Assembly: GCF_000205165.1 (NCBI RefSeq)
Contig: NZ_GL883822.1
Coordinates: 1-45,495, forward strand
Source: Paraprevotella xylaniphila YIT 11841
GTDB taxonomy: Bacteria > Bacteroidota > Bacteroidia > Bacteroidales > Bacteroidaceae
Direction of reading: 5' to 3'
DNA length: 45,495 nt
Shown: one piece after another, positions 7,479 through 22,001 of the stretch
Layout of the letters: each line of letters opens with the position of its first letter
Position numbering within the stretch: position 1 is the first letter of the stretch
The notes under the pieces: model-generated
The model's database searches: none
Seen by the model: the letters and a program-made list of their open reading frames with translations, nothing else
What the model was told of the DNA's origin: nothing
Translations under genes and position numbers: made by a program

Positions 7479-7916
7479 TCAAATAAATTCTTTATTACGT
7501 TCTACTTCCAATTCCATTAATTGTATCAGCCTTTCTTCATCTGGGCTTGGGATATATATTCCGGCATTTGACGCACACCAGTTTCTGAAACGGTCTACCG
7601 TAAGGGCAAATTCCGCGCTGTCCAGTTCGGAAGAGCTTCTAAGATACTTCACACGGCCAAGGTACTTGTCTTCCCTTTCCCGAATAAAAGTGTCAGGGTT
7701 GCAAAGAATCTTGTAATAGTTACGCTTCACATATTCCATGGTTTCGCCGATTTGGCATCCGAAGTATGAAAGGCAGACGTGAAGGTATTTGTTGGCCTGA
7801 ATGCTCCTCTGTGGTTTCTTCTCGGTCAAATCAAATATCTTCTTGTCCTTGATGAGCTTTTCCAATTTTGCCCTTGCCTGCCCGGCGTGGAGTTCGTTGG
7901 AACCGTCGTACCTCAT
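7479..7916 (-). CDS. NinB-like recombination protein (tentative)
   Basis: 145 residues. The stretch KKPQRSIQANKYLHVCLSYF followed by GCQIGETMEYVKRNYYKIL is like the NinB (Orf/YbcN) pattern of a basic strand, 'QxxxYLHxxL' and a following helix pair; NinB-type proteins bind single-stranded DNA and help load recombinases. The C-terminus has VDRFRNWCASNAGIYIPSPD. Position between an SSB-like gene and a coiled-coil gene supports a recombination role, but the similarity is weak. Confidence 0.7.
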   Translation of the reverse strand: MRYDGSNELHAGQARAKLEKLIKDKKIFDLTEKKPQRSIQANKYLHVCLSYFGCQIGETMEYVKRNYYKILCNPDTFIREREDKYLGRVKYLRSSSELDSAEFALTVDRFRNWCASNAGIYIPSPDEERLIQLMELEVERNKEFI

Positions 7917-7922
7917 AAATTA

Positions 7923-8234
7923 TCAGAAAGGCAAGTCGTCAAGAGGTGACACGCTTGGGGCTGCGGCCACTTGTTCGGGGGTTGGTGCGTTCGGTTGCGA
8001 CTGGTAGGTCTGCAAGTCACCGATGAAGTAGTTTTCCCCCTCCTTCCGTTCTTCTTTCTTGGGGGAACAAGAAACGAAGTGGGTATATGTCCTGTCGCCA
8101 AAGGTTGCAGGTTCTTTCCTTTCCCCCACAAAGATGTTCAGGAATATACGTTCCTTTCCGTCCTTGCACATGATTTTCTTCATCTGTGAGCGTGGTATGT
8201 CGCTCAGGCAGATACTTCCATATAAACTGCTCAT
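7923..8234 (-). CDS. Phage single-stranded DNA-binding-like protein
   Basis: 103 residues starting MSSLYGSICLSDIPRSQMKK. A small beta-rich body (ERIFLNIFVGERKEP, YTHFVSCSPKKEERKEG, YFIGDLQTY) is followed by a disordered Pro/Ala/Gln tail that ends in DDLPF. The acidic tip ending in Pro-Phe is the partner-binding tail of SSB proteins (DDxPF). Binding ssDNA and recruiting replication or recombination partners is therefore likely. It lies directly beside the nuclease and ERF annealase genes, the usual phage recombination set. Confidence 0.82.
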   Translation of the reverse strand: MSSLYGSICLSDIPRSQMKKIMCKDGKERIFLNIFVGERKEPATFGDRTYTHFVSCSPKKEERKEGENYFIGDLQTYQSQPNAPTPEQVAAAPSVSPLDDLPF

Positions 8235-8255
8235 TTTCTAATGTTTTTTATGTTA

Positions 8256-9164
8256 CTATTTCACTTTTAAAATCACGCTTCCGGAAACCTTGGTTTTGAT
8301 GAGATAAGCCTTGTAAAGGTCGGGATGGTCGGAGGCGAAACGCTTCTTGTCGAAGTCTTCCCTTTCGCTGTCTTCCTTGCGTGTAAAAGACACTCTGTCC
8401 CCGACCCACTTGCTTACACCGGCATTCTGCATCTCGAATTTTACGCCATCGGACAGTTCCTTTTTCTTTTCTGACCAATATTTATATTGCCGGTCGATTT
8501 CGGCTATGGCATCTTCCATGGCGGCATATTTTTCCGGAAGGCTCGTATCCGTGAAGGAAAGGGCATAGGGGTTGGCGAATTGCTCACCGTTCACCTCGTG
8601 CTCCATCAATGACACCACCACACCATCCGGGATGCGTTCAACTTCCACGAGTTCATGGCGTTCTCCGCGTAGCCAGATGGCATAAAGGTGGAGGACTTTT
8701 GCGCCGGGGTTCTGACGTTCAAAAAGGTAGGCGTAGACGGAAAGCTGCCACCTGACATATTCCTTGTCAAGCTTATAAGTAGTCTTTATGTCAGCCAATG
8801 TAAATGTTGATTCGCCATCCCTGTAAACCTTGTCGATGCAGCTTGCAAAGTGTTCGTTGTCTGATACAAGGTATTCGCTTTCCTCATGCTTCAGGGCGTA
8901 TGTCTCTTTCAGTTCCTTGTAGCCTATTGCTTCGGGGCTTTCATGCTCCACTCCAAGACTGTCCACCAACTCACAAACCGAATGGATGAATGAGCCGCGT
9001 TCTGCGGCGTTGCGCATCGTTTCTTCATCAATCCCGTCATACTTTCCGGGAAAGAGTTGCCGTGAAAGCATGCCGGTTATCCCGTCAAGCATCCTGCCGG
9101 CCGGCGTTATGTAGGTGTGAGTGGCCGGATAAAACACGACATCCGATTTTTTAAGCTTGTACAT
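8256..9164 (-). CDS. PD-(D/E)XK nuclease (RecB/Cas4-like exonuclease)
   Basis: About 302 residues. The visible motif set is HTYITPAGRMLDGITGMLSR at the N-terminus, the catalytic strand TLADIKTTYKLD (the D ... x-x-K arrangement), and RWQLSVYAYLFERQNPGAKV, where the Q and Y of the 'QLxxYAYL' helix are the typical RecB-family motif III. It would degrade or trim DNA ends for annealing by the ERF protein encoded next. The start at 9164 is chosen because a perfect AGGAGG Shine-Dalgarno lies about eight bases upstream (9171-9176), which is unusual for Bacteroidota. It overlaps the ERF gene end by 14 nt. Confidence 0.87.
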   Translation of the reverse strand: MYKLKKSDVVFYPATHTYITPAGRMLDGITGMLSRQLFPGKYDGIDEETMRNAAERGSFIHSVCELVDSLGVEHESPEAIGYKELKETYALKHEESEYLVSDNEHFASCIDKVYRDGESTFTLADIKTTYKLDKEYVRWQLSVYAYLFERQNPGAKVLHLYAIWLRGERHELVEVERIPDGVVVSLMEHEVNGEQFANPYALSFTDTSLPEKYAAMEDAIAEIDRQYKYWSEKKKELSDGVKFEMQNAGVSKWVGDRVSFTRKEDSEREDFDKKRFASDHPDLYKAYLIKTKVSGSVILKVK

Positions 9165-9708
9165 AAGGCACCTCCTTTTTCCTTTCACCCAAACGCTTCA
9201 TGAAAGCCTTGTCATCATGAAGCATGGTATATTTGTTGAATATTTTGGATAGTTCGGCCGTGTCCTTGGCAGCATCTATCTCTTGGAAAGCCATGTCCCG
9301 GTTGTCGGAAAGCCCGTCGTCCTTACCGCCGGTGTTCGTGTCGTCGCTGTCTTTCGTGTCGTCGATACAAAACATTCCGTTCAGGGCGTACTTCCGGGCA
9401 TAGGAAGAAGCCGCTCCCGTCACCTGTGAGCCATCCATGCCTTTCTTGCTTTCTTCTTCACGAGCATAAGCGGTAGTCGATACGGTTTCGCCGTTCTCAT
9501 TCTTTAATGTAACGGTGGCCTTTACATATATGCGCGTACCAACAAGAACCATTTCGTCGGCAATCGTAAGTTCGCACTTATGTTCATACAATAAGGGCTT
9601 CAATGCCTCCAGTATGTCTTCGCAACTCCGGTACTTGTACTTCCCGAAGTTGTTCCATTGCCCTTTGGGAGCTTTCAGGCTGTGTTGGATTTCTATTAGT
9701 TCTTTCAT
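9151..9708 (-). CDS. erf: ERF-family ssDNA annealing protein
   Basis: 185 residues. The ERF core is evident: LIEIQHSLKAPKGQWNNFGK, YKYRSCEDILEALKPLL, IYVKATVTLKN and GSQVTGAASSYARKYALNGM followed by acidic D/T residues. The GAASSYARKYAL helix is the diagnostic segment of the ERF superfamily (phage P22 Erf and relatives), which anneals complementary single strands and promotes recombination-dependent circularisation or repair. The acidic spacer DDTKDSDDTNTGGKDDG and a short C-terminal helical part follow. The start overlaps a small upstream frame by ATGA (9705-9708). Confidence 0.93.
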   Translation of the reverse strand: MKELIEIQHSLKAPKGQWNNFGKYKYRSCEDILEALKPLLYEHKCELTIADEMVLVGTRIYVKATVTLKNENGETVSTTAYAREEESKKGMDGSQVTGAASSYARKYALNGMFCIDDTKDSDDTNTGGKDDGLSDNRDMAFQEIDAAKDTAELSKIFNKYTMLHDDKAFMKRLGERKKEVPYVQA

Positions 9709-9794
9709 TTTACTTCCAATTCTGATTTGAGGAATTGCTTCAGGTCACGACCGTAATAAAACGGACGGCCATCCGAACCTGTGATAATTATTTC
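9705..9794 (-). pseudogene. Start-less frame, probably shifted end of the upstream HTH gene
   Basis: A clean reading frame (IIITGSDGRPFYYGRDLKQF and LKSELEVK) ends in a TGA that overlaps the erf ATG by ATGA, the coupling used by genuine genes here. It has no ATG, GTG or well-placed TTG start. The upstream gene at 9788-10087 ends ...GTMK-stop, and adding a single G after its last ATG would fuse the two into one ORF ending exactly at this coupled stop. So either a one-base deletion split one gene or ribosomal frameshifting joins them. Confidence 0.55.
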
Positions 9795-10087
9795 ATTGTC
9801 CCCCTCGCTACAATCCCGGCTATATTCGCCATGGATAAGGCTTGTTTGACTTCTGCCTTGGAGTAGTAAAGCGGAGAATTACGACCAACGCCTTTCCTTG
9901 TCGCCCGAATGACACCTTCCGAAACCAAACGGTTAAAACGCTTGATGTCTATCCGCATCATTTTTAACCAACGTTTTATTTCAGATGCCCGGACTAAATC
10001 TTGCGGTGGCTCGTATGCTTTGACGGCCTGCATATAGCCCACTTGAACAAAGTCGGCTATGACAGAATTTAGTTCTTGAATGTCCAT
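9788..10087 (-). CDS. Phage HTH protein, possibly frameshifted at its end
   Basis: 99 residues with LVRASEIKRWLKMMRIDIKR (first helices), VSEGVIRATRKG (recognition helix and hinge) and NSPLYYSKAEVKQALSMANI, a winged or MerR/excisionase-like DNA-binding module as in the HTH gene at 11751-12032. It likely binds DNA as a regulator of the early operon. It ends at a TAA just after GTMK, where a single-base change would extend it by about 30 residues to the erf-coupled stop (see the 9705-9794 entry). Confidence 0.75.
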   Translation of the reverse strand: MDIQELNSVIADFVQVGYMQAVKAYEPPQDLVRASEIKRWLKMMRIDIKRFNRLVSEGVIRATRKGVGRNSPLYYSKAEVKQALSMANIAGIVARGTMK

Positions 10088-10093
10088 GATAAT

Positions 10094-10336
10094 TTACTTT
10101 ATACATATAATAGAGATATAACCGGGATATTCTGTTGCAGAAACCCTAAACTTCACATCCATTGCTGTTTTCAGTTCACCCAAAAGCCGTCCCGTGCTAT
10201 TTCTTCGGCTTGCTTCTGCCCTGATTCCATTATATCTTTTTTTCTCGAACGGGACTTTGTACACATCCCCTTTTTTCATGCTGTCAAATAAGCCAACATG
10301 AGTATAATTTTCATCTATCATTATTTCCTTTATCAT
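10094..10336 (-). CDS. Small phage protein of unknown function
   Basis: 80 residues (MIKEIMIDENYTHVGLFDSM). A middle part with KGDVYKVPFEKKRYNGIRAE and RRNSTGRLLGELK suggests a small DNA- or protein-binding fold with a basic face. The start is supported by a good AGGAGG Shine-Dalgarno eight bases upstream (10341-10346), one of two strong ones in this operon. No family is recognised. Confidence 0.75.
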   Translation of the reverse strand: MIKEIMIDENYTHVGLFDSMKKGDVYKVPFEKKRYNGIRAEASRRNSTGRLLGELKTAMDVKFRVSATEYPGYISIICIK

Positions 10337-10353
10337 ATTTTACCTCCTTTCCG

Positions 10354-10572
10354 TTACCATAAATTTTTATCCGACAATGTGTCATAATACTCTTTGTTAG
10401 CCATGTATTCTTCGGCTATCTCACTGTCCGTGTCATGCCCCAATCCTTTGATAAGTTCATAAACATGCGGATTCAGGTTGTTCACAATCTCGTTTGTCCG
10501 GTCTGCGTGTCCGGCTAACCCTAATGCCACTATAAACAATGTGGCGATTCCAATGTTTCTTAATGTTTTCAT
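10354..10572 (-). CDS. Small secreted or membrane-anchored phage protein
   Basis: 72 residues. A hydrophobic N-terminal helix (TLRNIGIATLFIVALGLAGH) could be a signal peptide or membrane anchor, followed by a soluble acidic part with TDSEIAEEYMANKEYYDTLS. No domain is recognised. It is followed on the minus strand by the Shine-Dalgarno-led 80-residue gene. Confidence 0.65.
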   Translation of the reverse strand: MKTLRNIGIATLFIVALGLAGHADRTNEIVNNLNPHVYELIKGLGHDTDSEIAEEYMANKEYYDTLSDKNLW

Positions 10573-10593
10573 ATTGTTTGTTTTAGTTTGCTA

Positions 10594-10641
10594 CCCCTCA
10601 ACGGCTTAAACCGGTTGTTACCCCGAATCTTACGGGAGGGG
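10594..10641 (-). other. Compact three-helix RNA element A
   Basis: CCCCTC (10594-10599) pairs with GAGGGG (10636-10641) and encloses two hairpins: CGG-CTTAAA-CCG (10602-10613) and CCCG-AATCTTA-CGGG (10622-10636, sharing one base with the outer stem). It lies in the 126-nt gap between two phage genes. The shape is like a tRNA lacking one arm. It has no recognised motif; it may be a regulatory or processing element. Confidence 0.45.
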
Positions 10642-10698
10642 ATTGGTTTGAAAGGCGCACTTCCAATGGAGTAAAAGAAAAATCGTCACACTTAAAAC

Positions 10699-11079
10699 TT
10701 ACTTTGATATTGGAAGTACGCCGGGATTATCTTTCGGCGATCGCCCATTTAAAAAGGCTAATTGTTCTTTGCGATGTTCTTCGGACAGATAGCCTTCTTT
10801 CGTATAAAGATTATGTAATCCTCTGTCTTCATGCGAACCTTGGTTCTGCTCAAAAAAACTGTCGGGAATATCTAAGGTCAAATATGGCGACACTCGAACA
10901 ACCCGTGTACCAACGGGAAATTTACTCAAATCTATCCGCGACAATTCTTCCGCTTTTTGAAGAGAACAATCATCTTTGGAAGATAATCCTCCATTTTGGG
11001 GACATGCGCAAGTGGGATTCCCTTGAAGAATTGTTTGACCATCTTCTTCATACTTCTGATGATAGCTATTCCGTTTCAT
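10699..11079 (-). CDS. Phage protein of unknown function
   Basis: 126 residues. The N-terminal 45 residues are low-complexity and polar with two Cys; the second half (LSKFPVGTRVVRVSPYLTLD, then HNLYTKEGYLSEEHRKEQLA) looks conserved and coding. It runs in the operon direction and has an upstream 300-nt gap, so it may be the first gene of a sub-transcript. An antisense frame on the plus strand over the same interval is weaker in composition. Confidence 0.6.
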   Translation of the reverse strand: MKRNSYHQKYEEDGQTILQGNPTCACPQNGGLSSKDDCSLQKAEELSRIDLSKFPVGTRVVRVSPYLTLDIPDSFFEQNQGSHEDRGLHNLYTKEGYLSEEHRKEQLAFLNGRSPKDNPGVLPISK

Positions 11080-11750: not shown

Positions 11751-12032
11751 TTATTTGATTGCATCAATCTGGCTTTGCAAGTAATATGGTTTCTTCCCGA
11801 TTCGTCCGGCAGGAGACAGGTAACTTACCTTGTTCCATCTCCACAGGGTAGACAACGTTACGCCTAATTGCTGTGCCGCATCCTTGGCCGTGAGCCTCTT
11901 GTCCGGCTTGTCCTCTTTGGCCAACAAGGCTTTTACCTCTTCGGCCACCGTCAGGGCGAACTCCTTCAGGTCGGCAGGAGTGACGGATATTGTCACGTTT
12001 TGGCCACTGGCTATCAATTCTTGTATGTTCAT
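11751..12032 (-). CDS. Excisionase-like HTH protein
   Basis: 93 residues. After a helical N-terminus (TPADLKEFALTVAEEVKALL) the C-terminal half is a helix-turn-helix with RLTAKDAAQQLGVTLSTLWR and then RIGKKPYYLQSQID, the arrangement of Bacteroidota excisionase/MerR-like small proteins (DNA-binding helix plus 'R.GKK.YY' wing). It likely bends or marks DNA during excision or regulates the operon. It is the second gene after the early promoter, where a Cro- or Xis-like protein is expected. Confidence 0.85.
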   Translation of the reverse strand: MNIQELIASGQNVTISVTPADLKEFALTVAEEVKALLAKEDKPDKRLTAKDAAQQLGVTLSTLWRWNKVSYLSPAGRIGKKPYYLQSQIDAIK

Positions 12033-12043
12033 GATTATTTCCT

Positions 12044-12217
12044 TTAGAACCTTTTATTGAGGTTGTTCGCGAAAATGTAATCGCGCACCTCGTTTTCCTT
12101 TTCTGTGTCGGCGTTCCAATGCACAGCCCTCCATACAGTCATCTGTGAACACTGGCATGCACTGATTATCTGCGGTGTCACTCCTTTTTTCAATTTTATG
12201 GGTTTTCTTTTTGCCAT
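12044..12217 (-). CDS. Small phage Cro-like HTH protein
   Basis: 57 residues, in a frame other than the longest open frame here. It reads MAKRKPIKLKKGVTPQIISA and then CSQMTVWRAVHWNADTEKEN with the C-terminal VRDYIFANN. The pattern of a basic start, 'GVTPQIIS..CS.MTVWRAV' (helices 2-3) is a typical helix-turn-helix. It is the first gene after the leftward promoter and faces the repressor gene, so it fills the place of a Cro-type regulator. The ORF that covers 12054-12296 in another frame is Arg/Lys-rich and lacks such a pattern. Confidence 0.75.
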   Translation of the reverse strand: MAKRKPIKLKKGVTPQIISACQCSQMTVWRAVHWNADTEKENEVRDYIFANNLNKRF

Positions 12218-12293
12218 ATTGTTTTAAATTCTTATATTTGCCGCAAACGTTTAACAAGCGTACAACGTTGGGCATTGGTTTAACTTCACAATG

Positions 12294-12349
12294 CAAAGAT
12301 ATGGGTAATAAATGGTAATACCAATAATTACCATTTAAAAATAATGGTA
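12294..12349. promoter_or_regulatory. Lysogeny switch: leftward promoter and repressor operators
   Basis: The minus-strand promoter has -7 box TATCTTTG (12294-12301) and a TTG at 12322-12324 as -33 element. Overlapping it are half-sites of one motif: AATGGTAAT (12311-12319) and ATTACCATT (12327-12335) form a 25-bp perfect inverted repeat with a 7-nt spacer, and TACCATT (12329-12335) with AATGGTA (12343-12349) form a second with the same spacer. The sharing of a half-site gives an array typical of repressor operators that block the leftward promoter. Confidence 0.7.
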
Positions 12350-12367
12350 TTTAAAAGTATTTAACTT

Positions 12368-12826
12368 ATGAAGGGCGATGTCATAGATAGATTGAATAGA
12401 GTTATTGAATATATGTGTATAACACCTGCAGAGCTTGCAAAGAAGTCTGATGTTGACCCATCAAACTTCAATAAGATGCTGAAAGGTCAACTGAATATAA
12501 CTCCAAAAACAATAAAAAAAATAGTTAATGCAACTGGAGTATCGAATGACTGGTTATCGAACGGAGATGGTGAGATGTTGAGTCCCCAAAGTAATAATGT
12601 CACGATAAACGGAAACGAGAATCAAAACAACATTGGTGAGCAGAACATAAAAATATCATTGCCGGAAACCGGAACACAAAAAATTATTAAACCGGACGGG
12701 ACTGTGGAAGTGCATTCTATGGGTAAAAATATAGATAATTCCAACAATACCGATAAATTTATCGAACTTCTTAAAAAAAAGGACGAGCAAATAGATCGAT
12801 TAATAACTTTGTTGGAAAAGAAATAA
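12368..12826 (+). CDS. XRE-family phage repressor without protease domain
   Basis: 152 residues. The N-terminal helix-turn-helix is DRLNRVIEYMCITPAELAKK, followed by SDVDPSNFNKMLKGQLNITP and a dimerisation-like helix with KIVNATGVSNDWLSNGDG (the 'NPDWLLTGEG'-like end of XRE repressors). The C-terminal half is polar, Asn/Gln-rich, and ends in a heptad coiled coil KFIELLKKKDEQIDRLITLL. There is no S24 LexA-like protease domain, so induction would not be by RecA-driven self-cleavage. It faces the leftward operon and is followed by two accessory genes. Confidence 0.88.
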   Translation: MKGDVIDRLNRVIEYMCITPAELAKKSDVDPSNFNKMLKGQLNITPKTIKKIVNATGVSNDWLSNGDGEMLSPQSNNVTINGNENQNNIGEQNIKISLPETGTQKIIKPDGTVEVHSMGKNIDNSNNTDKFIELLKKKDEQIDRLITLLEKK

Positions 12827-12854
12827 ATCAGAATGTTTAATCAATTAATATATT

Positions 12855-13880
12855 ATGGAAAATAAACTTTATATAACAACCACAAATAAATTCGAGAATG
12901 GCGAAATACAAAAATATATGGGATTGGTATGTACAAACGTAGTTGTTGGTACAAATGTATTTTCTGATTTCGCAGCTTCTTTCACTGATTTCTTTGGAGG
13001 AAAATCGAATTCATATAGAAATAAATTGGAATACATATATAAAGAGGCTTTGAAAGATTTAGAGAACAGAACAAGAAAGCTTGGTGCAAACGCAATTGTT
13101 GGAGCAAGGATAGATTTTGATGAAATATCCGGAAAGGATAAGTCTATGTTTATGGTTTCCATATCAGGAACAGCTTGCCGTGTAAACATAAACGAATCAG
13201 AAATAAAGGAAGAAATCCAATCAGGAATTATAGAACAAGAAGTGTTAGAAAAAGAAATTAAAAAAAGAGAAATCATTAAATCAATAAAAGAGAACCAAAA
13301 AGTAGAAGAAGAATGGATTGAATTCATGCAAGAAAATCCTATAAAAGAAATCATTCCTGATTTAATTGGATTATACATAGCAGAGAAAAAAAATTATAGG
13401 GCTGTAGATGGAATCTTTAATGTAATTAAATCTTACAATAGAGGTGATTTAATACCAATATTATATGATAAGATTTTGGATTATAAAGATTTCCAATACA
13501 GTATTGATATAATTAAGAGACTTAAATTATTTGATGCGAATAGGGTGTTAAATATTTGCAAGAATGACCTAAAGAAAGGAATTTTACTTTTGAATATAGA
13601 ACCCAATTACTACAAAAAAGAAGAATTAGAGTACATGAAGGGAATATGCCAATATTATGAAAATATGCCCAATACTGGTAAAATAGAAAAATTAAAAACT
13701 GGAGTATTTAATAAAAAAGAAGAAGATAAATTTATATGTGAAAATGGTCATACAAACAATATTGACTCTATTTTTTGCGCAAAATGTGGTGTAAATATAA
13801 ATGGACTGAATGAAAAAGAATTTGAAGAAGTAAATGAATTTAAAAATAGAGTTCAAGTCTTGATTGATATTTTAAAGTAA
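12855..13880 (+). CDS. YbjQ-domain protein with C-terminal zinc ribbon (lysogenic accessory)
   Basis: 341 residues. Residues about 5-110 are a YbjQ/UPF0145 domain: GLVCTNVVVGTNVFSDFAAS, FFGGKSNSYRNKLEYIYKEA, LGANAIVGARIDFDE and MFMVSISGTACRV are all diagnostic. A Glu/Lys-rich linker (about 110-165) leads to a helical middle and a zinc ribbon at the end, with C295, H299, C308 and C311 (CENGH ... CAKCG). YbjQ family members are usually stand-alone pentameric proteins of about 105 residues; a large C-terminal extension in a phage is unusual. Codon use is AT-rich. It is expressed with the repressor and is not a phage structural gene, so lysogenic conversion or superinfection exclusion is a possibility. 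Confidence 0.85.
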   Translation: MENKLYITTTNKFENGEIQKYMGLVCTNVVVGTNVFSDFAASFTDFFGGKSNSYRNKLEYIYKEALKDLENRTRKLGANAIVGARIDFDEISGKDKSMFMVSISGTACRVNINESEIKEEIQSGIIEQEVLEKEIKKREIIKSIKENQKVEEEWIEFMQENPIKEIIPDLIGLYIAEKKNYRAVDGIFNVIKSYNRGDLIPILYDKILDYKDFQYSIDIIKRLKLFDANRVLNICKNDLKKGILLLNIEPNYYKKEELEYMKGICQYYENMPNTGKIEKLKTGVFNKKEEDKFICENGHTNNIDSIFCAKCGVNINGLNEKEFEEVNEFKNRVQVLIDILK

Positions 13881-14011
13881 AGTGCAACTAAACTAACACA
13901 AGATTCCTGTTAATCACCCAAACTTTAAATATTCGGACTTCAAATTGAAGATTTCCGATGTTTTTGGAGTTTATAAAGTAATTTTATATTTATCAATTAA
14001 ATAGTCATATT

Positions 14012-14752
14012 ATGAAGAAAGTATTATTAATACTGCCCATGTTGGTGGCTTTGTTTTTTATTGGGTGCAGCAGTGACGATTATAAAGACAATAAGGAAAT
14101 CAATTTGTTAAATGGGACAAAATGGTCATATACAACCTCTACTTTTAATCATATTCAAAAAGAATTTGAAGATAAGGAGAATAAAAGTAATGTGGAATAT
14201 CTTTTAAGAATATGTCCAAGTATAAATTATACAATAGAAGATTATAATATAGGAGAAGAAAAGTTTAAAATCAATCTTTGTGAACATTATGGTCATTCAC
14301 GTCACGAAAAAGATTCTTTGAGCTTCTATGACCAAAAATGTTATTATGAGTATAGAAGTATTGAATACATTCAGGATGTGACAAAAACAACAGAAACTGC
14401 AACATATAAATTTAAAGAGGGGAATTATATTGGGTCTTTTGGAGGTAGCAGCTATTTTGGTGTAACTGTAAAAAGTTACGGCGTTTATAGGAGTACGATT
14501 GGAGGAGATGTTGTCGTTATACCACTCGACGGGAATTATTGTTACAACATGTCTTCAGTAAAATACTGTTCAGAAGTATTGGAACAAGAGATTGATTCTG
14601 ACACCAAAATACTTTATTATGATTTTGATAAAGATAATATATCTATATTCGACGGAAGTTATGATATAAAAGGAAGCTATTCAGACTATTATATGAATCT
14701 AAACTTTAATCTACCATACGAAAGAAGCGTTATGTTGCCGAAAAAGCAATAA
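14012..14752 (+). CDS. Prophage-encoded lipoprotein
   Basis: 246 residues with a classical lipoprotein signal: MKKVLLILPMLVALFFIGCS, the lipobox ending at Cys19, followed by SSDD. The rest is a beta-rich body with LLNGTKWSYTT near the start and six further Cys (CPS, LCEH, KCYY, YCYN, KYCSE), possibly disulphide-bonded, which fits an outer-membrane or surface-exposed place. The L-x-G-T-x-W-x-Y-T opening resembles small secreted lipoproteins of Bacteroidota (lipocalin-like). As a lysogeny-module gene it could alter the surface or block superinfecting phage. I recognise no named family. Confidence 0.8.
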   Translation: MKKVLLILPMLVALFFIGCSSDDYKDNKEINLLNGTKWSYTTSTFNHIQKEFEDKENKSNVEYLLRICPSINYTIEDYNIGEEKFKINLCEHYGHSRHEKDSLSFYDQKCYYEYRSIEYIQDVTKTTETATYKFKEGNYIGSFGGSSYFGVTVKSYGVYRSTIGGDVVVIPLDGNYCYNMSSVKYCSEVLEQEIDSDTKILYYDFDKDNISIFDGSYDIKGSYSDYYMNLNFNLPYERSVMLPKKQ

Positions 14753-14793
14753 ACTCCCTTAAAAGTTCATCGCATTCAAAACAGAGCACAGCC

Positions 14794-14853
14794 ATGGAAC
14801 TGAAAGACTTCGTAAAAGAAACATTGGTACAGATAACAAAAGGAGTGAAATAA
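14794..14853 (+). CDS. Very small ORF, 19 residues, possible gene remnant
   Basis: The frame reads MELKDFVKETLVQITKGVK and then stops. Its start resembles the N-terminus of a family of longer Bacteroidota proteins that begin 'MELKDFVxxTLxxI', so it may be the stump of such a gene cut off at the phage end. It may equally be a real micropeptide. It lies 41 nt after the lipoprotein gene and 157 nt before the attachment junction. Confidence 0.35.
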   Translation: MELKDFVKETLVQITKGVK

Positions 14854-14929
14854 GAACGGATGCAGAATCAACCATGGATGAGTTATTGGTGACAGGATAG
14901 GCAGGGCATTTAAAGAATAGTTTTGCAAA

Positions 14930-14957
14930 TTGTTTACTCTTTGTTTTCCCTTGTTGG
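14930..14957 (+). other. Candidate integrase arm-type sites
   Basis: TTGTT recurs three times at 14930, 14941 and 14951 with spacings of 11 and 10 bp, one helical turn apart, and AACAAAC (its inverse) occurs at about 14996. They sit 55-80 bp from the tRNA-derived core at 15,010. Arm-type integrase sites have this arrangement, but the motif is short and the region is AT-rich, so chance is possible. Confidence 0.2.
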
Positions 14958-15009
14958 AATAAAATAGATGTAAATGAATTAAAAACAAGTAGTTAACAAA
15001 CAACTCCTC

Positions 15010-15195: not shown

Positions 15196-16317
15196 TCAAA
15201 AAATATATTGGACACGTAATTGCCCTAAGAATAGGTTTTTCTTGTAAAATTCATTGCAATGTTCTCCTACAAGGACATAACTTCCGTTCAGTTTTACGGC
15301 CAAATATTCATTCAAATAGAAATTGGCTCCCAACGAAACGTCGCTTTCCCGCCCGCCCATGATGCCGGCCCTGCCATCGTTCAAGTTCGTATAATTGAAA
15401 CGTGCCGTGAGTTCTATTGCCTGTTTACTGCCCGGCCTGCCGGGAATACCGTACAGGTCGTCATACGCAAACCCTCTTCCCCGAACCAGAAAGCCTGCCT
15501 GCACATATCCTCCCTGCGGACGATAAGCCTCCCTTTCCGTACGATTGAGACGGTTCAGAAAGTATTCTCCCTGTACCATGAAACGCGGAGCGGTATAAAG
15601 TATCTCAAAAACGCCTTTGAGTTCTGTCCCTAAACGGTCCACGGTGGCTTCCATCAATGGAAACGGGAACATGGATGTCACGCCATCGTTCGATACAGTT
15701 TTTGTCGGCGGTTCCACTGTATTCACCGGTTTGGTACGGAAAGAAAAAGCACCACCCACATGCAAAAGATTCCCTTTCCACCGCTTGCGCCAAACACCCC
15801 GCGAAGTGGAAACCAAAGCGTTAACCTGCCCGTCACCGATTTTATTGATGTCGTTATGCGTATACAATCCCGTAGCCCAATATCCAAATGGCAGACTGGA
15901 ATGATAGGTCACGCCGAGCTTGCGTCCGTCCGTAAAAGCCAATACGGACCCTGCCGACTGATGGAAGCGCATGTCTGCCGTACTGATAAGCATGTCCATG
16001 GAATAAGGTTCATAAGCATTTCCTAACGAAAGGACACCATGTTTAAAGTGATAGTTCAACAACAAATCCTTGATGGCTACTTTGTTTCCTCCCAAACCAA
16101 TGTCGGCTTTCATTTCATATTGCCGGTAAGTGGCTTTAAAGCCCACACGGAAATCTTCCAAGCGATAATACCCCTGCACATTTTCCTTGCCATAACCGGA
16201 CACAGCGGCATCCAGCAATGCCCTCGAACGAAACTTCACGGTCAGAGGTTCATCCGCCTGTGCCGTCATAAAGCAACTTCCCATGCCCAACCACACGCAT
16301 GCCATCCATTTTCTCAT
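15196..16317 (-). CDS. Outer-membrane porin (phosphate-selective porin O/P-like)
   Basis: 373 residues from the ATG of MRKWMACVWLGMGS, which overlaps the EtfA stop by ATGA (16314-16317). The signal peptide ends near TAQADEP, then alternating amphipathic beta strands run to an aromatic C-terminal strand ending VQYIF. The N-terminal barrel opening VKFRSRALLDAAVSGYGKEN and GVLSLGNAYEPYSMDMLIST (the 'G.f.epfs.e' segment) are like OprO/P-family porins. The longer open frame upstream of the ATG has no signal peptide and overlaps the EtfA gene antisense-free in another frame, so I reject it. Being in this operon it likely lets the substrate cross the outer membrane. Confidence 0.85.
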   Translation of the reverse strand: MRKWMACVWLGMGSCFMTAQADEPLTVKFRSRALLDAAVSGYGKENVQGYYRLEDFRVGFKATYRQYEMKADIGLGGNKVAIKDLLLNYHFKHGVLSLGNAYEPYSMDMLISTADMRFHQSAGSVLAFTDGRKLGVTYHSSLPFGYWATGLYTHNDINKIGDGQVNALVSTSRGVWRKRWKGNLLHVGGAFSFRTKPVNTVEPPTKTVSNDGVTSMFPFPLMEATVDRLGTELKGVFEILYTAPRFMVQGEYFLNRLNRTEREAYRPQGGYVQAGFLVRGRGFAYDDLYGIPGRPGSKQAIELTARFNYTNLNDGRAGIMGGRESDVSLGANFYLNEYLAVKLNGSYVLVGEHCNEFYKKNLFLGQLRVQYIF

Positions 16318-17528
16318 ACGCACCGGTTCAAAATGTTCATGAATTGCGGAAGTGCCTCTTCCACAGGTATTGCCCAACCATAATCCGCCACATTGAAGAT
16401 AGGGGCCGTACGGTCCGGGTTGACGGCTATCACGCAACGCGCTCCGGTGATGGCCGCCGTATGCTGTATCTGTCCGCTGATACCGATGGCGATATACAAA
16501 TCCGGAGCTATCGTATGCCCGGTCTGCCCCACTTGCACGGAAGCGTCCACCAACCCGGCTTCCACTGCCGCACGAGACCCGGCTACCGTCGCACCGATAC
16601 GTTCGGCCCACTTCCGGATTTCATCGGCACATCTCCGCGTTTTCACTCCTCGTCCTATACCTATTATAATAGCACTGTCGTTCAGAGAAGTTCCGCCCAC
16701 TTCTTCCGCCACGGTCTCCAACACGCGAACACGGCTGTCGGCTCTTCCGGCCTCATAAGCATGATAGACGATTTCCCTCTTCCTCGAAGTATCCTTCTGC
16801 CGGGCTTTCATCACCCCCGGACGTACGGAAGCCATTTGCGGCCTACAAACGGGGTTGACAATCGTAGCCATCAGGTTTCCTCCGAAAGCCGGACGTATTT
16901 GGCGCAACAGTCCGCTGTCCGCATCCATTTCCAACTCCGTACAATCTGCCGTCAATCCGGTGTGCAATACGGCTGCCAATCGTGCGGACAAACCACGACC
17001 GCATGGCGTAGCCCCGATAAGCAAGACCGAAGGATGCTGTTTGCGCACCAAGCCGGCTAACACTTCCGTATAGTTTTCCTCCACAAAATCCGACAGAAGC
17101 GGAGACTCCACCACGTGCACACGGTCTGCACCGGCGGCTATCAACTCATCCGCCCATACGGACACCTCACCGCCTATCAGCACAGCCTCGACCGGTTGGG
17201 GTCGGCAAGCCGCAAGTTCTGCAGCCTTTCCCAAAAGTTCCAAGCTTACCGGTGCCAAAGCTCCGTCCACGACTTCCGCCCACACCCAAATGCCATGGGA
17301 ATCATCCACAGGCTGTTCCTGCCTTTCGTCTTGACGCTGCATCACCCAAGCTCCAACCGGACAAGCCTGCACACAACCGCCGCACAACCGGCAATTCTCT
17401 TCATCCACCTCCGGAAAGTCGCCCATACGGATAGCCCCATAGGCACAACTTTCGGCACATATTCCGCAGGATATACATTGCCCGGCCTGTAATTGAAGTA
17501 TAAAATCCTTATCTTTATTCATTTTCAT
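16314..17528 (-). CDS. etfA: Electron-transfer flavoprotein alpha with N-terminal ferredoxin
   Basis: 404 residues. Residues 18-28 (CISCGICAESC) and 46-56 (CRLCGGCVQAC) bind two [4Fe-4S] clusters. The rest is EtfA: a helical domain with VLIGGEVSVWADELIAAGAD, then the FAD-binding domain with GIGRGVKTR, AAVEAGLVDASVQVGQTGHT, LYIAIGISGQIQHTAAITGA and AVNPDRTAPIFNVADYGWAI. ETFs with this ferredoxin fusion are known from anaerobes such as the caffeyl-CoA reductase system (CarE) and belong to the bifurcating kind. The gene follows etfB by eight bases and overlaps the porin. Confidence 0.93.
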   Translation of the reverse strand: MKMNKDKDFILQLQAGQCISCGICAESCAYGAIRMGDFPEVDEENCRLCGGCVQACPVGAWVMQRQDERQEQPVDDSHGIWVWAEVVDGALAPVSLELLGKAAELAACRPQPVEAVLIGGEVSVWADELIAAGADRVHVVESPLLSDFVEENYTEVLAGLVRKQHPSVLLIGATPCGRGLSARLAAVLHTGLTADCTELEMDADSGLLRQIRPAFGGNLMATIVNPVCRPQMASVRPGVMKARQKDTSRKREIVYHAYEAGRADSRVRVLETVAEEVGGTSLNDSAIIIGIGRGVKTRRCADEIRKWAERIGATVAGSRAAVEAGLVDASVQVGQTGHTIAPDLYIAIGISGQIQHTAAITGARCVIAVNPDRTAPIFNVADYGWAIPVEEALPQFMNILNRCV

Positions 17529-17536
17529 CTTGCTTT

Positions 17537-18322
17537 TTAAAAATTAGTTCCGCGCCTCATGCTTTCGCGGACGACTGCAAAAAACTGTTCCCCGTCGGGA
17601 AGCCATTCCACGTCTTTCTTCCGTCGAGGCACCATGGTAGACACTACTTGGGTTGGAGATGCCTGCAATCCGACCTGAGAAGGTTCCAGTCCCAAGTCGC
17701 ATTCATCCCAATGAAGGATGGCCTGTCGCTGAGCCCACCGCCAACCGGCCAGTGTGGGACAATCCAGTTCCCCCGTCTCCCGACCAACCGTCACGACACA
17801 AGGCAAATCCACCTCCATACGTTGGAGTAAACGACCGGCCTTCTTCCTCACACATATACAAGTATCCGATATGTCCGAAACCTCCATCAAATGCGTCACT
17901 TGGGGAATATCCAACTGTCCGGCTACCTCAGGCCCCACTTGTGCCGTATCGCCATCCACCGCCATTTTCCCGAAAAGCAACAAGTCGTATTCACCCAACT
18001 TGCGCACGGCTGCCGCCAGTACCAGGCTCGTACACCACGTATCGCTTCCGGCAAATGCCTTGGAGGACAACAAAACCGCCTTATCCGCCCCTCTTTGCAA
18101 AGCCTCCCGGAGCACTTCTTCCGCCGAAGCGGGTCCCATGCTTACCGCCACTATCTCAGCCCCCGTCTGCCTTTTCAATTTTACTGCCGACTGCAAGGCA
18201 TACAAGTCATCAGGATTTGTCCGGGTCATGGCCGACGAACGCTTCAGCGTCCGGGTTACAGGATCCATCTCTACCTTTGTAGACAAAGGCACTTGCTTTA
18301 AGAATACAATATACCGCTTCAT
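17537..18322 (-). CDS. etfB: Electron-transfer flavoprotein beta, bifurcating-type sequence
   Basis: 261 residues, starting MKRYIVFLKQVPLSTKVEMD. The NPDDLYALQSAVKLKRQTGA and AVSMGPASAEEVLREALQRG segments and the loop GKMAVDGDTAQVGPEVAGQL (residues about 118-137) are hallmarks of the EtfB subgroup that binds NAD(H)/FAD and takes part in bifurcation (CarD-like 'DGDTAQVGP'). The C-terminus LPDGEQFFAVVRESMRRG is also normal. It forms the heterodimer with the ferredoxin-EtfA next to it. It lies 34 nt after the flavoprotein gene. Confidence 0.92.
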   Translation of the reverse strand: MKRYIVFLKQVPLSTKVEMDPVTRTLKRSSAMTRTNPDDLYALQSAVKLKRQTGAEIVAVSMGPASAEEVLREALQRGADKAVLLSSKAFAGSDTWCTSLVLAAAVRKLGEYDLLLFGKMAVDGDTAQVGPEVAGQLDIPQVTHLMEVSDISDTCICVRKKAGRLLQRMEVDLPCVVTVGRETGELDCPTLAGWRWAQRQAILHWDECDLGLEPSQVGLQASPTQVVSTMVPRRKKDVEWLPDGEQFFAVVRESMRRGTNF

Positions 18323-18356
18323 ATCTTTTGTTTTTTATCTTCCATATATCCGAACC

Positions 18357-19586
18357 CTATCCACCTTTCTTATTGGAACGGGCATCCGCACACCTTTTTT
18401 GAAACTCAGCCGAAAACGGGTCCACCGTCCCGAAACGGTCCGGTGCAAACCCGGACGGATCCACAAACGGCTCTTCCCGCAAAATCAATTCTGCGGCCAA
18501 GCGTCCCATACCTCCACCGGCGGCCACACCTCCTCCACAGCATCCGGCTACGGCATACAACCCTTCGTATGGACGCACCTGCCCGATAATGAACTTGGCA
18601 TCCGGCACGTAACATGAAGGCCCGGCCACATAATGCGCGATACCCAATGTTTCTATGTCCGGAAGATAACGCTGTAGCAACGGGGCACACTCGTCGAGCA
18701 CTTCCCATTCGGCGGCCTTATTGAAATCGAAATCCTCCAACTTATCCGTCAATGCGTCGGGATTGAAGGCTTGGCATTCACTTTCGCGCAAGCCGATAAT
18801 CAACGCCCCCACATCCGAACGGGTGAAAGCACGGGCATCGGGAATCACCGTAAAAGGATGGTTTGCCGGAAAACGCCCGGGGTTTGTTCCCGTAATCCAA
18901 AAATGACTCCGCACCGGAGTAAAAGGAAGCCCTATCCCTAAAGGACGCATCAACAGGTTGGCCCACGAACCTGCGGCATTCACCACAACCGGTGCCAGTA
19001 TTTTTTCCCCGTCCGCCAACTCCACTCCCGTCGCCTTGCCTCCAACAGCCACAATGGCTTTTACTTTCGTATTCGGACGCAATTCCGCCCCGAGAACTCG
19101 TGCAGCACGTGCATAACCGGAACACAACAACGCACAATCTATAAACGCATCCGTTAGCATGTAAAGTGCCTCTTCTACCGCCGAGACCTCCATCCAAGGA
19201 AGAAGTTCCTTCAAACGCCTCCGGTCGATACGTTCATTCGGTATTCCGAAACGTACGGCCGCTTCTTCCAATGCTTCGAGTTCTTTCAGCGATGCGTCGG
19301 ACGAAGAAATGGTCACACTGCCGCACTGCTGCAGTTCGAGCGATTCCCCCAAAAGGTGCTCTATTTCATCGATGCAATCATACGTTTCCTGCACCATTTC
19401 CATCAAGGCCGGTTTAGTACGCGCCCGTGTCAACAGGCAGGCTGCACGGGACGAAGCCTGCGATGCTATCTCGTTGGCATCCAACAACAGCACCTTCCCC
19501 ACCTTACGTTTGGCCAACTGATAAGCCGTGGCGCATCCCAACAAACCGCCACCGATAATTATCACATCATAATCCTGTTCCATCAT
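18357..19586 (-). CDS. DAO-family FAD-dependent oxidoreductase
   Basis: About 409 residues. The ATG at 19586 overlaps the MFS stop (TGATG), which fixes the start. The Rossmann FAD site is VIIIGGGLLGCATAYQLAKR with E/D end LLLDANEIASQASSRAA, followed by VNAAGSWANLLMRPLGIGLP and near the end GLYAVAGCCGGGVAAGGGMG, the DAO family pattern. The C-terminal FAPDRFGTVDPFSAEF resembles sarcosine/dimethylglycine dehydrogenase-like enzymes. The next genes encode an ETF, which in other organisms takes electrons from amine dehydrogenases of this fold. Likely substrate class is an amino acid or N-methyl amine; the exact one cannot be read. Confidence 0.85.
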   Translation of the reverse strand: MMEQDYDVIIIGGGLLGCATAYQLAKRKVGKVLLLDANEIASQASSRAACLLTRARTKPALMEMVQETYDCIDEIEHLLGESLELQQCGSVTISSSDASLKELEALEEAAVRFGIPNERIDRRRLKELLPWMEVSAVEEALYMLTDAFIDCALLCSGYARAARVLGAELRPNTKVKAIVAVGGKATGVELADGEKILAPVVVNAAGSWANLLMRPLGIGLPFTPVRSHFWITGTNPGRFPANHPFTVIPDARAFTRSDVGALIIGLRESECQAFNPDALTDKLEDFDFNKAAEWEVLDECAPLLQRYLPDIETLGIAHYVAGPSCYVPDAKFIIGQVRPYEGLYAVAGCCGGGVAAGGGMGRLAAELILREEPFVDPSGFAPDRFGTVDPFSAEFQKRCADARSNKKGG

Positions 19587-20908
19587 CAAATAACATTATA
19601 TTGAGGATTCATATACAAAGTCGTACGCTCCGTCTGTTCTTTTCTACGCCCTTGGGCGGAATACCGTTTATAAATCAATACGGCAGCCACCGTGAACAAG
19701 ACCGCACAAACCGCGCCGACCGCGCATGCCATGTGGTTGTAAAGCGCAAACCACTCCATGTCGAAATTCAGAAACTCCTTGGTGGAAAGCAGGGTCACCG
19801 TACCCATGTAGCCGATGAAGTCGATAATGGCAATGAAGAACCCCACGTTTCCCCTGATACGGAAACAAGCGATGAAGCGATCGAAGAAAACCGTCTGGAA
19901 AGTCAGATAGGCAATGTAGAGGCACAAGCTCTGCACAAACAACCACACCACAGGCTGCCAATCCAATGCCTCATAATTCAGTGACACGTATGTCATGACC
20001 AAACAACCGGCAATGACCAGTCCCATCAGGCACATCAAAGCCCGGATGTTGCTGCGGAAGAAGATGAAAGCGGCAAATATCCCGAGGATGACCAACGTAA
20101 CAATCGTATCCACCTGGGCGAAAAGCCAAGAAGACTGATTGCTCATATCCAGGATATTGACCAGAAAATCTTCCTTGATATCGCGCAGCACCAGCAACAT
20201 GAAGTTGCCCACGAACAACAAGGTAAGAATCGGAGCGTAACTTCGGAACAAGAGCTTACGTCCGTTTCCGTCCAATGTCACACGTTCGTTACGCAACGCA
20301 ATATCCTCTTCCGTAGGCTGTGGCAGACGCTTCAGCATATACCCCATAAAAACGAGAAGAGGCAAAGCAAAAGCTCCAATCACGGCAGGCATCCAAAACT
20401 GTCCCACGTGCATCTCGTTCATGGCAAACAAGCCGAAACTCTTAGCCACACCGGAACTGAACACCATGCTTACGCCCAACAGGCTGGCCAACATATCCGT
20501 CACCTTGCGTCCCTCGATAAAGCTGAATATCACGCCCCACATGCAACCGAGCGACAAGCCGTTCAAAAACATGGCCGCCACATTGAACGGAGGAGCCAAC
20601 AGGCCGAAGCCGACCAAAGCCGCCTCGGCTGCTACCGCCGAACAGACGAAAAACTTGAAACGACGCTCCTTCTTCAACTCCGAAATCAACTTGATGCCAA
20701 AGAACTTGGCTATCACATAACCTAAAATCTGAATCGTCGTCACCACGACCTTGTAATCCGTGCCGAAAAAATCAAACCCCTCGAACGAAGCCGCCGTATA
20801 AGGTTTGCGCAAGGCATACACCAAAGAGTAGGAAAGCAAGGCCGCACCGCCCGCCCACAGGATGAGCAACGCATCCGAAAATCTTTTGTTCTTTACGATT
20901 TGTTCCAT
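19586..20908 (-). CDS. MFS transporter of the DUF5690 family
   Basis: About 440 residues from MEQIVKNKRFSDALLILWAG with about 12 membrane helices. The N-terminal YSLVYALRKPYTAASFEGFD (R-K-P pair in the first loop) and GYVIAKFFGIKLISELKKER resemble the organophosphate/phosphate antiporter branch of the MFS. Long helices continue, for example NGLSLGCMWGVIFSFIEG. The tail after the last helix is basic (KRYSAQGRRKEQTERTT). It is the first gene of the operon (promoter-like TAGTTTTG at 20932-20939) and probably imports the substrate. An ATG 16 codons upstream also exists but is outside the conserved start. Confidence 0.88.
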   Translation of the reverse strand: MEQIVKNKRFSDALLILWAGGAALLSYSLVYALRKPYTAASFEGFDFFGTDYKVVVTTIQILGYVIAKFFGIKLISELKKERRFKFFVCSAVAAEAALVGFGLLAPPFNVAAMFLNGLSLGCMWGVIFSFIEGRKVTDMLASLLGVSMVFSSGVAKSFGLFAMNEMHVGQFWMPAVIGAFALPLLVFMGYMLKRLPQPTEEDIALRNERVTLDGNGRKLLFRSYAPILTLLFVGNFMLLVLRDIKEDFLVNILDMSNQSSWLFAQVDTIVTLVILGIFAAFIFFRSNIRALMCLMGLVIAGCLVMTYVSLNYEALDWQPVVWLFVQSLCLYIAYLTFQTVFFDRFIACFRIRGNVGFFIAIIDFIGYMGTVTLLSTKEFLNFDMEWFALYNHMACAVGAVCAVLFTVAAVLIYKRYSAQGRRKEQTERTTLYMNPQYNVI

Positions 20909-20931
20909 AACCATAGTTTTGTTTTCGGCTG

Positions 20932-20939
20932 CAAAACTA
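20932..20939 (-). promoter_or_regulatory. Promoter -7 box of the ETF operon
   Basis: TAGTTTTG fits TAnnTTTG and lies 23 nt upstream of the MFS start; I found no clear -33 element at the usual spacing, so an activator may be needed. TGTAACAT occurs twice between the divergent genes (21008-21015 and 21052-21059) and could be a regulator site. Confidence 0.4.
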
Positions 20940-21067
20940 TCCCAAACCGCCATCTGAAAAAATTAATTCATTATATATCATACGTCCGTCCAAACCCGTA
21001 TTTATTATGTAACATTCATCTCACGGTAATGAAGCACGAAAGCAACAGGTTTGTAACATGGAAAACG

Positions 21068-21075
21068 TACCTTTG
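21068..21075 (+). promoter_or_regulatory. Promoter -7 box of the divergent regulator
   Basis: TACCTTTG fits TAnnTTTG 17 nt before the ATG at 21093, giving a leader of only about ten bases. The -33 element is not obvious. Confidence 0.4.
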
Positions 21076-21092
21076 CCCCAAAGAACATACGT

Positions 21093-22001
21093 ATGGACAA
21101 ATTGGTATCACTCTACGAACGAATGAAGAAACTGCGCGAAGCCGGTGTACGGATGAAGGACATCTCCGAGGAGACGGGCATCGCGTCCAGCGTACTCTCC
21201 TCGCTCTATTCTTCCGTGCTCCCCACCTACATCAATCTGCTCTCCGGAGGATGCGGTACGGAAAGTGCGTTAGACCAAGGGCTGCAACAAGTCAACAACG
21301 TGTCGAAACGCAAACTGCAAGGTTGCCTCGACGAATTGTACGACAAAGTGAGCCACATCGAGCCACGTTTCGTTTCCAACAAAAACGGCAGACGACCTTT
21401 CCTGGACGACATCGAGAAAGAAGCCATCAAATACCTGCCCAATGCCGGCATCTATACCGGGCTTTACCAGTCTTACAGTTCTTCATCCTACTCCGACGGA
21501 CTGAAAGTGGAGCCTTATATGATATCCTCTATCGTAGATGGCGACACCATGCCCAAAGTCTATTGCCAGAACCTGTCGGGTGACTACTATATCGGCGTGG
21601 GGCTGTTCTCACCGTTTCAAATCGGTTATCTGATGTTCAACGAACAAAAACGCCTGCAACTTGCCCTGAAGGTGGTCTACCTGCAACTGCCCATCATCGA
21701 GTATCCCCAAATCATGAAAGGAATCTATCTGACACACGACTATAACCGCAATCCGATCGCCCGGCGCATCCTCTTTGTCCGGCAAGGCGACGAAATCCCA
21801 CTGGAAGAGTTTGCCGACTTACGCACAGAAGTAATCCCCAAAGCACAACTGACCGGAGAACTGTTGGAATACTATAATTACACTTGCTGCAACGAGGATA
21901 TCATACGGAGCATGATGCTGATATCACCGGACAAGGATACCAAAGAACTCCAACGCGAAAAGCAACTCCTGAAAATCCTCAGTACACAAGAGGGTCCCTG
22001 A
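21093..22001 (+). CDS. Divergent HTH regulator of the ETF operon (probable)
   Basis: 302 residues. The N-terminal 60 residues are a helix-turn-helix: ERMKKLREAGVRMKDISEET, then GIASSVLSSLYSSVLPTYIN. The remainder is a large sensory-like region with LSGDYYIGVGLFSPFQIGYL, FVRQGDEIPLEEFADLRTE and a C-terminal helix KELQREKQLLKILSTQ. I do not recognise this family by name; it is not AraC, LysR or GntR. It is transcribed divergently from the MFS/DAO/ETF/porin operon with 184 bp between start codons, so control of that operon by its substrate is the natural guess. Confidence 0.75.
   Translation: MDKLVSLYERMKKLREAGVRMKDISEETGIASSVLSSLYSSVLPTYINLLSGGCGTESALDQGLQQVNNVSKRKLQGCLDELYDKVSHIEPRFVSNKNGRRPFLDDIEKEAIKYLPNAGIYTGLYQSYSSSSYSDGLKVEPYMISSIVDGDTMPKVYCQNLSGDYYIGVGLFSPFQIGYLMFNEQKRLQLALKVVYLQLPIIEYPQIMKGIYLTHDYNRNPIARRILFVRQGDEIPLEEFADLRTEVIPKAQLTGELLEYYNYTCCNEDIIRSMMLISPDKDTKELQREKQLLKILSTQEGP

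Follow-up and report, generated by a model that had tools for sequence, protein, structure and literature searches.

The stretch of DNA analysed here, called the window below, comprises 45,495 nucleotides of Paraprevotella xylaniphila YIT 11841 (NZ_GL883822.1). Between positions 15,196 and 22,001 it carries an operon and a regulator gene that faces it. The operon brings together an FAD enzyme of the DAO family, both subunits of an electron-transfer flavoprotein (ETF), a transporter and a porin. On the minus strand, read from 20953 to 15196, the order is transporter, DAO, EtfB, ferredoxin-fused EtfA and porin, and no gap exceeds 34 bases.

The first gene (20953-19586) encodes a DUF5690 transporter of the major facilitator superfamily (MFS) type, probably an aminophosphonate importer (Pfam DUF5690, 5.8e-131). 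Comparison with orthologues suggests that it starts later, near 20908. Its end overlaps by one base the DAO gene (19586, or 19583, to 18357; Pfam DAO, 2e-66), which encodes a PbfC-type enzyme of 409 residues. After 34 bases follows EtfB (18322-17537; Pfam ETF) and after a further 8 bases EtfA (17528-16314; Pfam ETF, ETF_alpha and Fer4 families), with an N-terminal 2[4Fe-4S] ferredoxin domain. The last gene encodes an outer-membrane porin (16317-15196; Pfam Porin_O_P, 5.8e-17), whose ATG at 16317 lies in a 4-base ATGA overlap with EtfA. On the plus strand the divergent gene at 21093-22001 encodes a regulator of 302 residues that belongs to no known family; an alignment of regulator sequences has 29 rows. 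The original prediction described this same five-gene operon with its facing regulator, coupled by short overlaps and gaps of less than 35 bases. Every gene lies where it had been placed, and the measured junctions agree.

Conservation and spread of the cassette

Searching species-representative genomes with DAO yielded 13 loci. We kept 12 (L005-L016) and dropped L017 as a non-orthologue (38% over 48 residues). The 12 loci come from Paraprevotella, Xylanibacter, Phocaeicola, Parabacteroides, Marseilla, Bacteroides and Prevotella metagenome-assembled genomes (MAGs) and one Rikenellaceae MAG. EtfB follows DAO in all of them. Hence, the pairing is not due to chance. EtfA is present in 11 loci, and the twelfth is cut by the end of its contig. 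The transporter precedes DAO in 11 loci, the porin follows the ETF genes in 8, and the regulator is present in 10 (divergent and upstream in 9).

Seven of the 201 genomes in the family sample contain a DAO orthologue. Another 26 of the 33 genomes with a DAO match have only weak ones, which were not counted as orthologues (identity 25-44% at best, for the most part confined to the first ~240 residues; the frames have ~510-580 residues). Orthologues of the ferredoxin-fused EtfA (>500 bits; search cut-off 1e-60) occur in exactly the seven genomes that carry DAO. Apart from G196 and G117, none of the remaining EtfA matches listed starts before query residue 57, so these lack the ferredoxin domain; those two owe their earlier start solely to reading through stop codons. 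Independent assortment of the genes, which a gene-neighbourhood check could have revealed, is not what we see: EtfB follows DAO in 12/12 loci, and EtfA co-occurs with it in 7/7 genomes. The five genes form one unit.

At strict cut-offs DAO is found in 3 of 384 genomes across the order and in 3 of 395 across the phylum, with the window genome (G000) and G013 in both trios. Thus DAO is rare outside the family sample. The nearest record, from Paraprevotella clara, is 96% identical to the window enzyme, and those of other genera are 66-80% identical. The cassette is patchy: among the 12 genomes sampled from the window's own genus, 4 carry it. Together, the identities across genera and the patchy distribution suggest that the cassette spread horizontally.

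A PbfC-type enzyme among phosphonate genes

The DAO enzyme has 650 matches in all plasmid records. By far the best of them comes from Azospirillum sp. B510, where it is encoded on plasmid pAB510a (identity 40.8% over 99%; the next-best plasmid match has 30%). Its gene lies ~50 bases from that plasmid's PhnX gene, which is called at equivalog level, and the C-terminal tail is conserved between the two enzymes. Since strain and phnX context agree, we take the B510 protein to be PbfC. PbfC converts N-methyl-2-aminoethylphosphonate (M1AEP) to phosphonoacetaldehyde and methylamine, and prefers M1AEP 400-fold over 2-aminoethylphosphonate (AEP) (Zangelmi and co-workers, PMC10590968). It works poorly with oxygen and apparently does not use NAD(P)+; its discoverers left the natural acceptor open, a quinone 'or perhaps some carrier protein' (PMC10590968). 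Homologues of PbfC occur in the FCB group (PMC10590968).

In a tree of 16 DAO rows, the window family, G211, G717 and the B510 enzyme form a clade of 8 with support 97/97. The order of the clade's three lineages is unresolved, and the tree holds one TIGR03364 row and no PbfB. The TIGR03364 (PbfD1-type) row stands far outside the clade on a long branch. Residues that set the clade apart number 27, including R54, R267 and H318; they are invariant in its 8 members and present in at most one of 8 outgroup rows. We regard them as no more than candidate phosphonate-binding residues, with Y69, S227, W230 and Y319 as further clade-specific positions that may contact a phosphonate. All three outer members adjoin phosphonate genes. 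In G717, from a distant member of the Bacteroidota, the PbfC-type gene stands with DUF5690, PhnW, phosphonoacetaldehyde dehydrogenase and PhnA. In G211, from another family, an operon runs DUF5690-PhnX-PhnW-DAO with gaps of 3 to ~48 bases, followed by the end of the contig (L112). The DAO gene lies in, or co-occurs with, AEP clusters of the phnX or phnY/phnA type, as expected of the PbfC group.

The link to PhnX, called by TIGR01422 above its cut-off, extends to the genomes that carry the cassette. PhnX is present in all 12 genomes with L005-L016, whereas no control genome out of 14 has it. Of the 201 genomes in the family sample 17 have it, including all 7 with a DAO orthologue. The chance of this co-occurrence is 8e-9 if genomes are treated as independent, and 0.004 within two genera (4/4 among 5/12; 3/3 among 9/12).

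The window genome itself carries a complete sister cassette on contig C8, consisting of a regulator paralogue, DUF5690, PhnX and PhnW. The last two are phosphonoacetaldehyde hydrolase and 2-aminoethylphosphonate:pyruvate transaminase at the equivalog level of NCBIfam. In 3 of the 12 loci phnX and phnW lie within the fetched flank. Phocaeicola faecium (L008) has, next to the cassette, a paralogue of the regulator together with another DUF5690 transporter, PhnX and PhnW. The same holds for P. plebeius (L010), except that the fetched stretch contains no second regulator. The Rikenellaceae MAG (L016) has a single fused PhnX-PhnW gene divergent from the cassette. This gene (L016, 790-2676) encodes a natural fusion of 629 residues, each half of which scores above its equivalog cut-off. 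Elsewhere (L076, from G097) a porin 68% identical to that of the window follows PhnX-PhnW, and in annotated records of Bacteroides finegoldii and Parabacteroides distasonis DUF5690-phnX-phnW is preceded by a hypothetical gene that occupies the regulator position.

What, then, does the enzyme oxidise? The original prediction favoured a sarcosine- or dimethylglycine-like substrate and allowed for an aminophosphonate in an aside. The aside fits the PhnX link and the PbfC-type kinship. The PhnX link led us to put the favoured substrate aside: the enzyme groups with phnX-linked PbfC-type enzymes and falls under the NCBIfam cut-offs for sarcosine, glycine and N-methyltryptophan oxidases (SolA 113 of 257 bits, soxA_mon 86 of 480, ThiO 83 of 251). 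A PbfD/TIGR03364 identity was rejected as well (41 of 285 bits; BLAST aligns the TIGR03364 row over only 31 residues).

For the substrate to be a non-phosphonate N-methyl amine after all, such as sarcosine or dimethylglycine, the PhnX link would have to be a coincidence of shared habitat. The cassette genes are patchily spread accessory genes of gut genomes, and the best solved-structure matches in a sequence search are dimethylglycine dehydrogenases. Nevertheless, we regard this as very improbable given the PhnX co-occurrence (12/12 and 7/7), the phnX-phnW neighbours in three loci, the PhnX-PhnW-DAO operon, and the paralogues of the transporter and the regulator that occur in phnX-phnW cassettes, one of these cassettes having a porin homologue too.

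A closer alternative keeps the mechanism and changes the phosphonate: DAO may oxidise plain AEP or another relative, such as dimethyl-AEP or hydroxy-AEP. PbfD-type enzymes take AEP, and PbfD1 also takes dimethyl-AEP (PMC10590968). The cassette has a transporter and a regulator of its own, distinct from those of the phnX-phnW cassette, as would suit some other phosphonate. Yet AEP is already served by the PhnW of the sister cassette, and the kin enzyme PbfC discriminates strongly against it (PMC10590968). We consider this alternative unlikely. The substrate can be named as an N-methylated aminophosphonate with fair confidence, and DAO is a probable N-methyl-2-aminoethylphosphonate dehydrogenase.

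Phosphonate clusters with related genes also turned up in other settings. Three circular records labelled plasmids (L087, L088 and L089; OY725933, OY725756 and OY725996), with Bacteroides, Parabacteroides and Phocaeicola as hosts, carry a regulator-like gene, DUF5690, phnX and phnW; they may be misassembled parts of chromosomes. L081 holds a regulator-like gene (7481-8392), an alcohol dehydrogenase (8954-10009) and PhnX (10047-10829). L082 (10047-14643) holds a regulator homologue, a zinc alcohol dehydrogenase and PhnX, plus a DUF5690 transporter. The L082 dehydrogenase scores 292 of 328 bits, below the cut-off, against TIGR03366, 'phosphonate catabolism associated'. The two clusters possibly encode a route from 2-hydroxyethylphosphonate to phosphonoacetaldehyde.

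The ETF pair and its genetic surroundings

Dimethylglycine dehydrogenases hand electrons to ETF (PMC12630350), and a DAO amine dehydrogenase as the likely partner of EtfAB is a part of the original proposal that stands. The two subunits also show the motifs that had been read from them. EtfB carries VDGDTAQVGP, and the DGDTAQVGP loop is present in 12/12 readable EtfB, window included; in L016 EtfB is cut before the loop. EtfA carries two CxxCxxCxxxC motifs from Cys18 on (Cys18,21,24,28 and Cys46,49,52,56). These eight cysteines are intact in 12/12 readable EtfA, again including the window; in L012 EtfA is split between frames and its N-terminal piece was read apart, and in L016 EtfA is not reached.

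In a sequence search, the best solved matches of both subunits are 6fah, 5ol2, 4kpu, 7qh2 and 7koe, all of which we take to be bifurcating ETFs. The first of them, 6fah, matches with 8e-52 (EtfB) and 8e-87 (EtfA), the last, 7koe/4kpu, with 1e-39 and 7e-60, and canonical ETFs only from 5e-18 and 1e-29. Gly123 of A. fermentans EtfB is invariant in bifurcating ETFs, and canonical ones have a bulkier residue in its place (PMC12630350). It aligns with Gly124 of the window EtfB, the beta-FAD glycine within the loop. Judged by sequence alignment rather than structural alignment, EtfB keeps this glycine of the bifurcating-FAD site. With these matches and this glycine the reading as a ferredoxin-fused ETF of the bifurcating type holds at the level of sequence.

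EtfAB could still be a plain carrier that takes electrons from DAO to another dehydrogenase or a quinone reductase, with no coupling to ferredoxin and NAD. ETFs of anaerobes are not always bifurcating, as the canonical ETF of the Fusobacterium nucleatum lactate cluster illustrates (PMC12630350). However, that ETF has a Phe at the position of the window Gly (PMC12630350), and the 8-cysteine ferredoxin domain is intact wherever EtfA could be read. A search for PF05187, the ferredoxin domain of ETF:quinone oxidoreductase, found nothing in the window genome, where other quinone reductases, such as the FixCX type, were not searched for; the same search found the domain in 3 of 14 control genomes. 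We therefore set aside an electron exit via ETF:quinone oxidoreductase. A gene for RnfC is present in the window genome. Overall, the plain carrier seems to us improbable, and we keep to a coupled EtfAB.

The remaining genes of the cassette tie it to its sister cassettes. Paralogues of the regulator stand beside phnX-phnW cassettes, and paralogues of the DUF5690 transporter head them. The model of the transporter (mean pLDDT 64.4) matches MFS proteins in general, best GLUT1, with SLC37A4 and GlpT among the ten best fold matches. This fold is consistent with transport of phosph(on)ates and does not prove it. For the regulator, no Pfam family exceeds its cut-off; the best, HTH_25, scores 13.8 bits where 24.6 are required, and its match does not lie at the N-terminus. 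Its AlphaFold model (mean pLDDT 66.7, pTM 0.49) predicts N-terminal helices and has no solved-structure match under E 0.1. The earlier description as a divergent and unfamiliar helix-turn-helix (HTH) regulator thus stands as far as divergence and lack of a known family go, and 'HTH' comes only from the N-terminal helices of this low-confidence model.

Words like TGTTACAA and ACATTCAT recur among 19 gaps between regulator and transporter genes (20954-21092 in the window and 18 others), and may be an operator. TGTTACAA-like words occur in 10 of the 19 stretches, a raw count that is not used as evidence.

The neighbourhood of the operon within the window has features of its own. Just downstream, at 12001-15000, lies an island of 29-32% GC between flanks of 45-48%, where one gene encodes a protein with a YbjQ domain and another, lipoprotein-like gene matches no Pfam family. 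The first 12 kb of the window (40-47% GC) look like a prophage or other mobile element, and a phage antirepressor (KilAC/Rha) and a DEAD/ResIII helicase are encoded at 2042-4014.

A proposed anaerobic route for methylated aminophosphonates

From gene content, synteny, co-occurrence, PbfC-type kinship and ETF motifs we infer a substrate, a product, electron partners, a direction of electron flow and transport roles. The porin and the DUF5690 transporter would import an N-methylated 2-aminoethylphosphonate, most likely M1AEP. DAO would oxidise it to phosphonoacetaldehyde and methylamine, and the electrons would pass to the operon's own EtfAB, not to oxygen or a quinone. EtfAB probably confurcates: an electron from reduced ferredoxin, entering via the fused 2[4Fe-4S] domain, would be added to reduce NAD+. 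The net reaction would be M1AEP + reduced ferredoxin + 2 NAD+ -> phosphonoacetaldehyde + methylamine + 2 NADH. PhnX from the sister cassette would then cut phosphonoacetaldehyde into acetaldehyde and phosphate, which makes the phosphorus usable. With PbfC as its kin and phosphonate genes as its context, the cassette thus resembles a PbfC system for anaerobic conditions that has its own acceptor, EtfAB. We think this reading of the operon, from M1AEP import through oxidation and confurcation to PhnX cleavage, a fairly likely one. For the general statement that gut Bacteroidota have an oxygen-free route for N-methylated aminophosphonates in which amine oxidation during the breakdown of C-P compounds is linked to a confurcating, ferredoxin- and NAD-dependent ETF, we are leaning towards yes, if narrowly.

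Several points weigh against this reading. The cassette is known here from genes and sequences alone. That the B510 plasmid gene is the PbfC of the paper is something we infer, and at 41% identity to the B510 enzyme the specificity of the window DAO may differ. Searches with tblastn matched neither ETF subunit in 19 kb around the B510 gene, no ETF within 20 kb around the G717 gene, and neither DAO nor ETF in 17 PhnX regions of family genomes; hence the pathway in general does not include an ETF. The genome's second, housekeeping ETF pair (G000:C23:124123-125915), which adjoins an acyl-CoA dehydrogenase-like gene, has no ferredoxin domain; its EtfB also has DGDTAQVGP, which means that this motif is not specific to the ferredoxin-fused pair. 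Confurcation rather than simple electron transfer is a guess. In the window genome phnX and phnW are on a different contig from the operon. Stratified by genus, the co-occurrence of DAO and PhnX is only moderately strong, and the counts in 12 and in 7 genomes are not two independent tests because their species overlap. Finally, among the 12 loci no transporter was seen in 1, no regulator in 2 and no porin in 4; of the porin-less loci, L016 ends inside EtfB and L009 ~1 kb after EtfA.

Several known systems resemble parts of the proposed one. PbfC of Azospirillum sp. B510 shares with the window enzyme the DAO clade, full-length identity, the C-terminal tail and a phosphonate-gene context; unlike it, the window enzyme is a constant member of an operon that also encodes EtfAB, a transporter of the DUF5690 family and a Porin_O_P porin. 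The caffeyl-CoA reductase-EtfAB complex CarCDE (6fah) also has an EtfB with the beta-FAD loop and an EtfA with an N-terminal 2[4Fe-4S] domain. Its partner is a reductase of the acyl-CoA dehydrogenase type, in contrast to the DAO amine dehydrogenase here. The lactate dehydrogenase-EtfAB complex of Acetobacterium woodii (7qh2) confurcates substrate and reduced ferredoxin with 2 NAD+ (PMC12630350), as we propose for the window system. It differs in its lactate dehydrogenase flavoprotein partner and in its EtfA, whose alignment covers the ferredoxin domain only in part. Mitochondrial dimethylglycine dehydrogenase (5l46) is likewise a DAO-fold amine dehydrogenase that gives electrons to ETF, although it has ~840 residues instead of 409 and its ETF is canonical and AMP-binding. 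The window DAO has an Arg aligned to the His of 5l46 to which FAD is covalently bound. The phnWX pathway for AEP shares the phosphonoacetaldehyde intermediate and is encoded by the sister cassette in the same genomes. Unlike the proposed route, PhnW cannot use an N-methylated substrate (PMC10590968).

We found no description of this system in any title or abstract start among the matches listed, and no paper on DUF5690, in searches that did not extend to subscription papers. PMC10590968 contains neither 'bacteroid' nor 'ferredoxin', and in 12 of the 21 places where it has 'electron transfer' or 'flavoprotein', bacterial ETF is not the subject. 'Electron transfer' and 'ferredoxin' do not occur in PMC12366243 or PMC10574752.

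The discoverers of PbfC left its acceptor open, and the operon offers a concrete candidate for the anaerobic branch of the family. If the proposed route is true, PbfC-type dehydrogenases gain a physiological electron acceptor. Bifurcating ETFs would extend to amine oxidation, with DAO amine dehydrogenases as a new class of partner, and the DUF5690 family would gain a role as phosphonate transporters. Gut Paraprevotella and Phocaeicola would then mine methylated aminophosphonates for phosphorus without oxygen.

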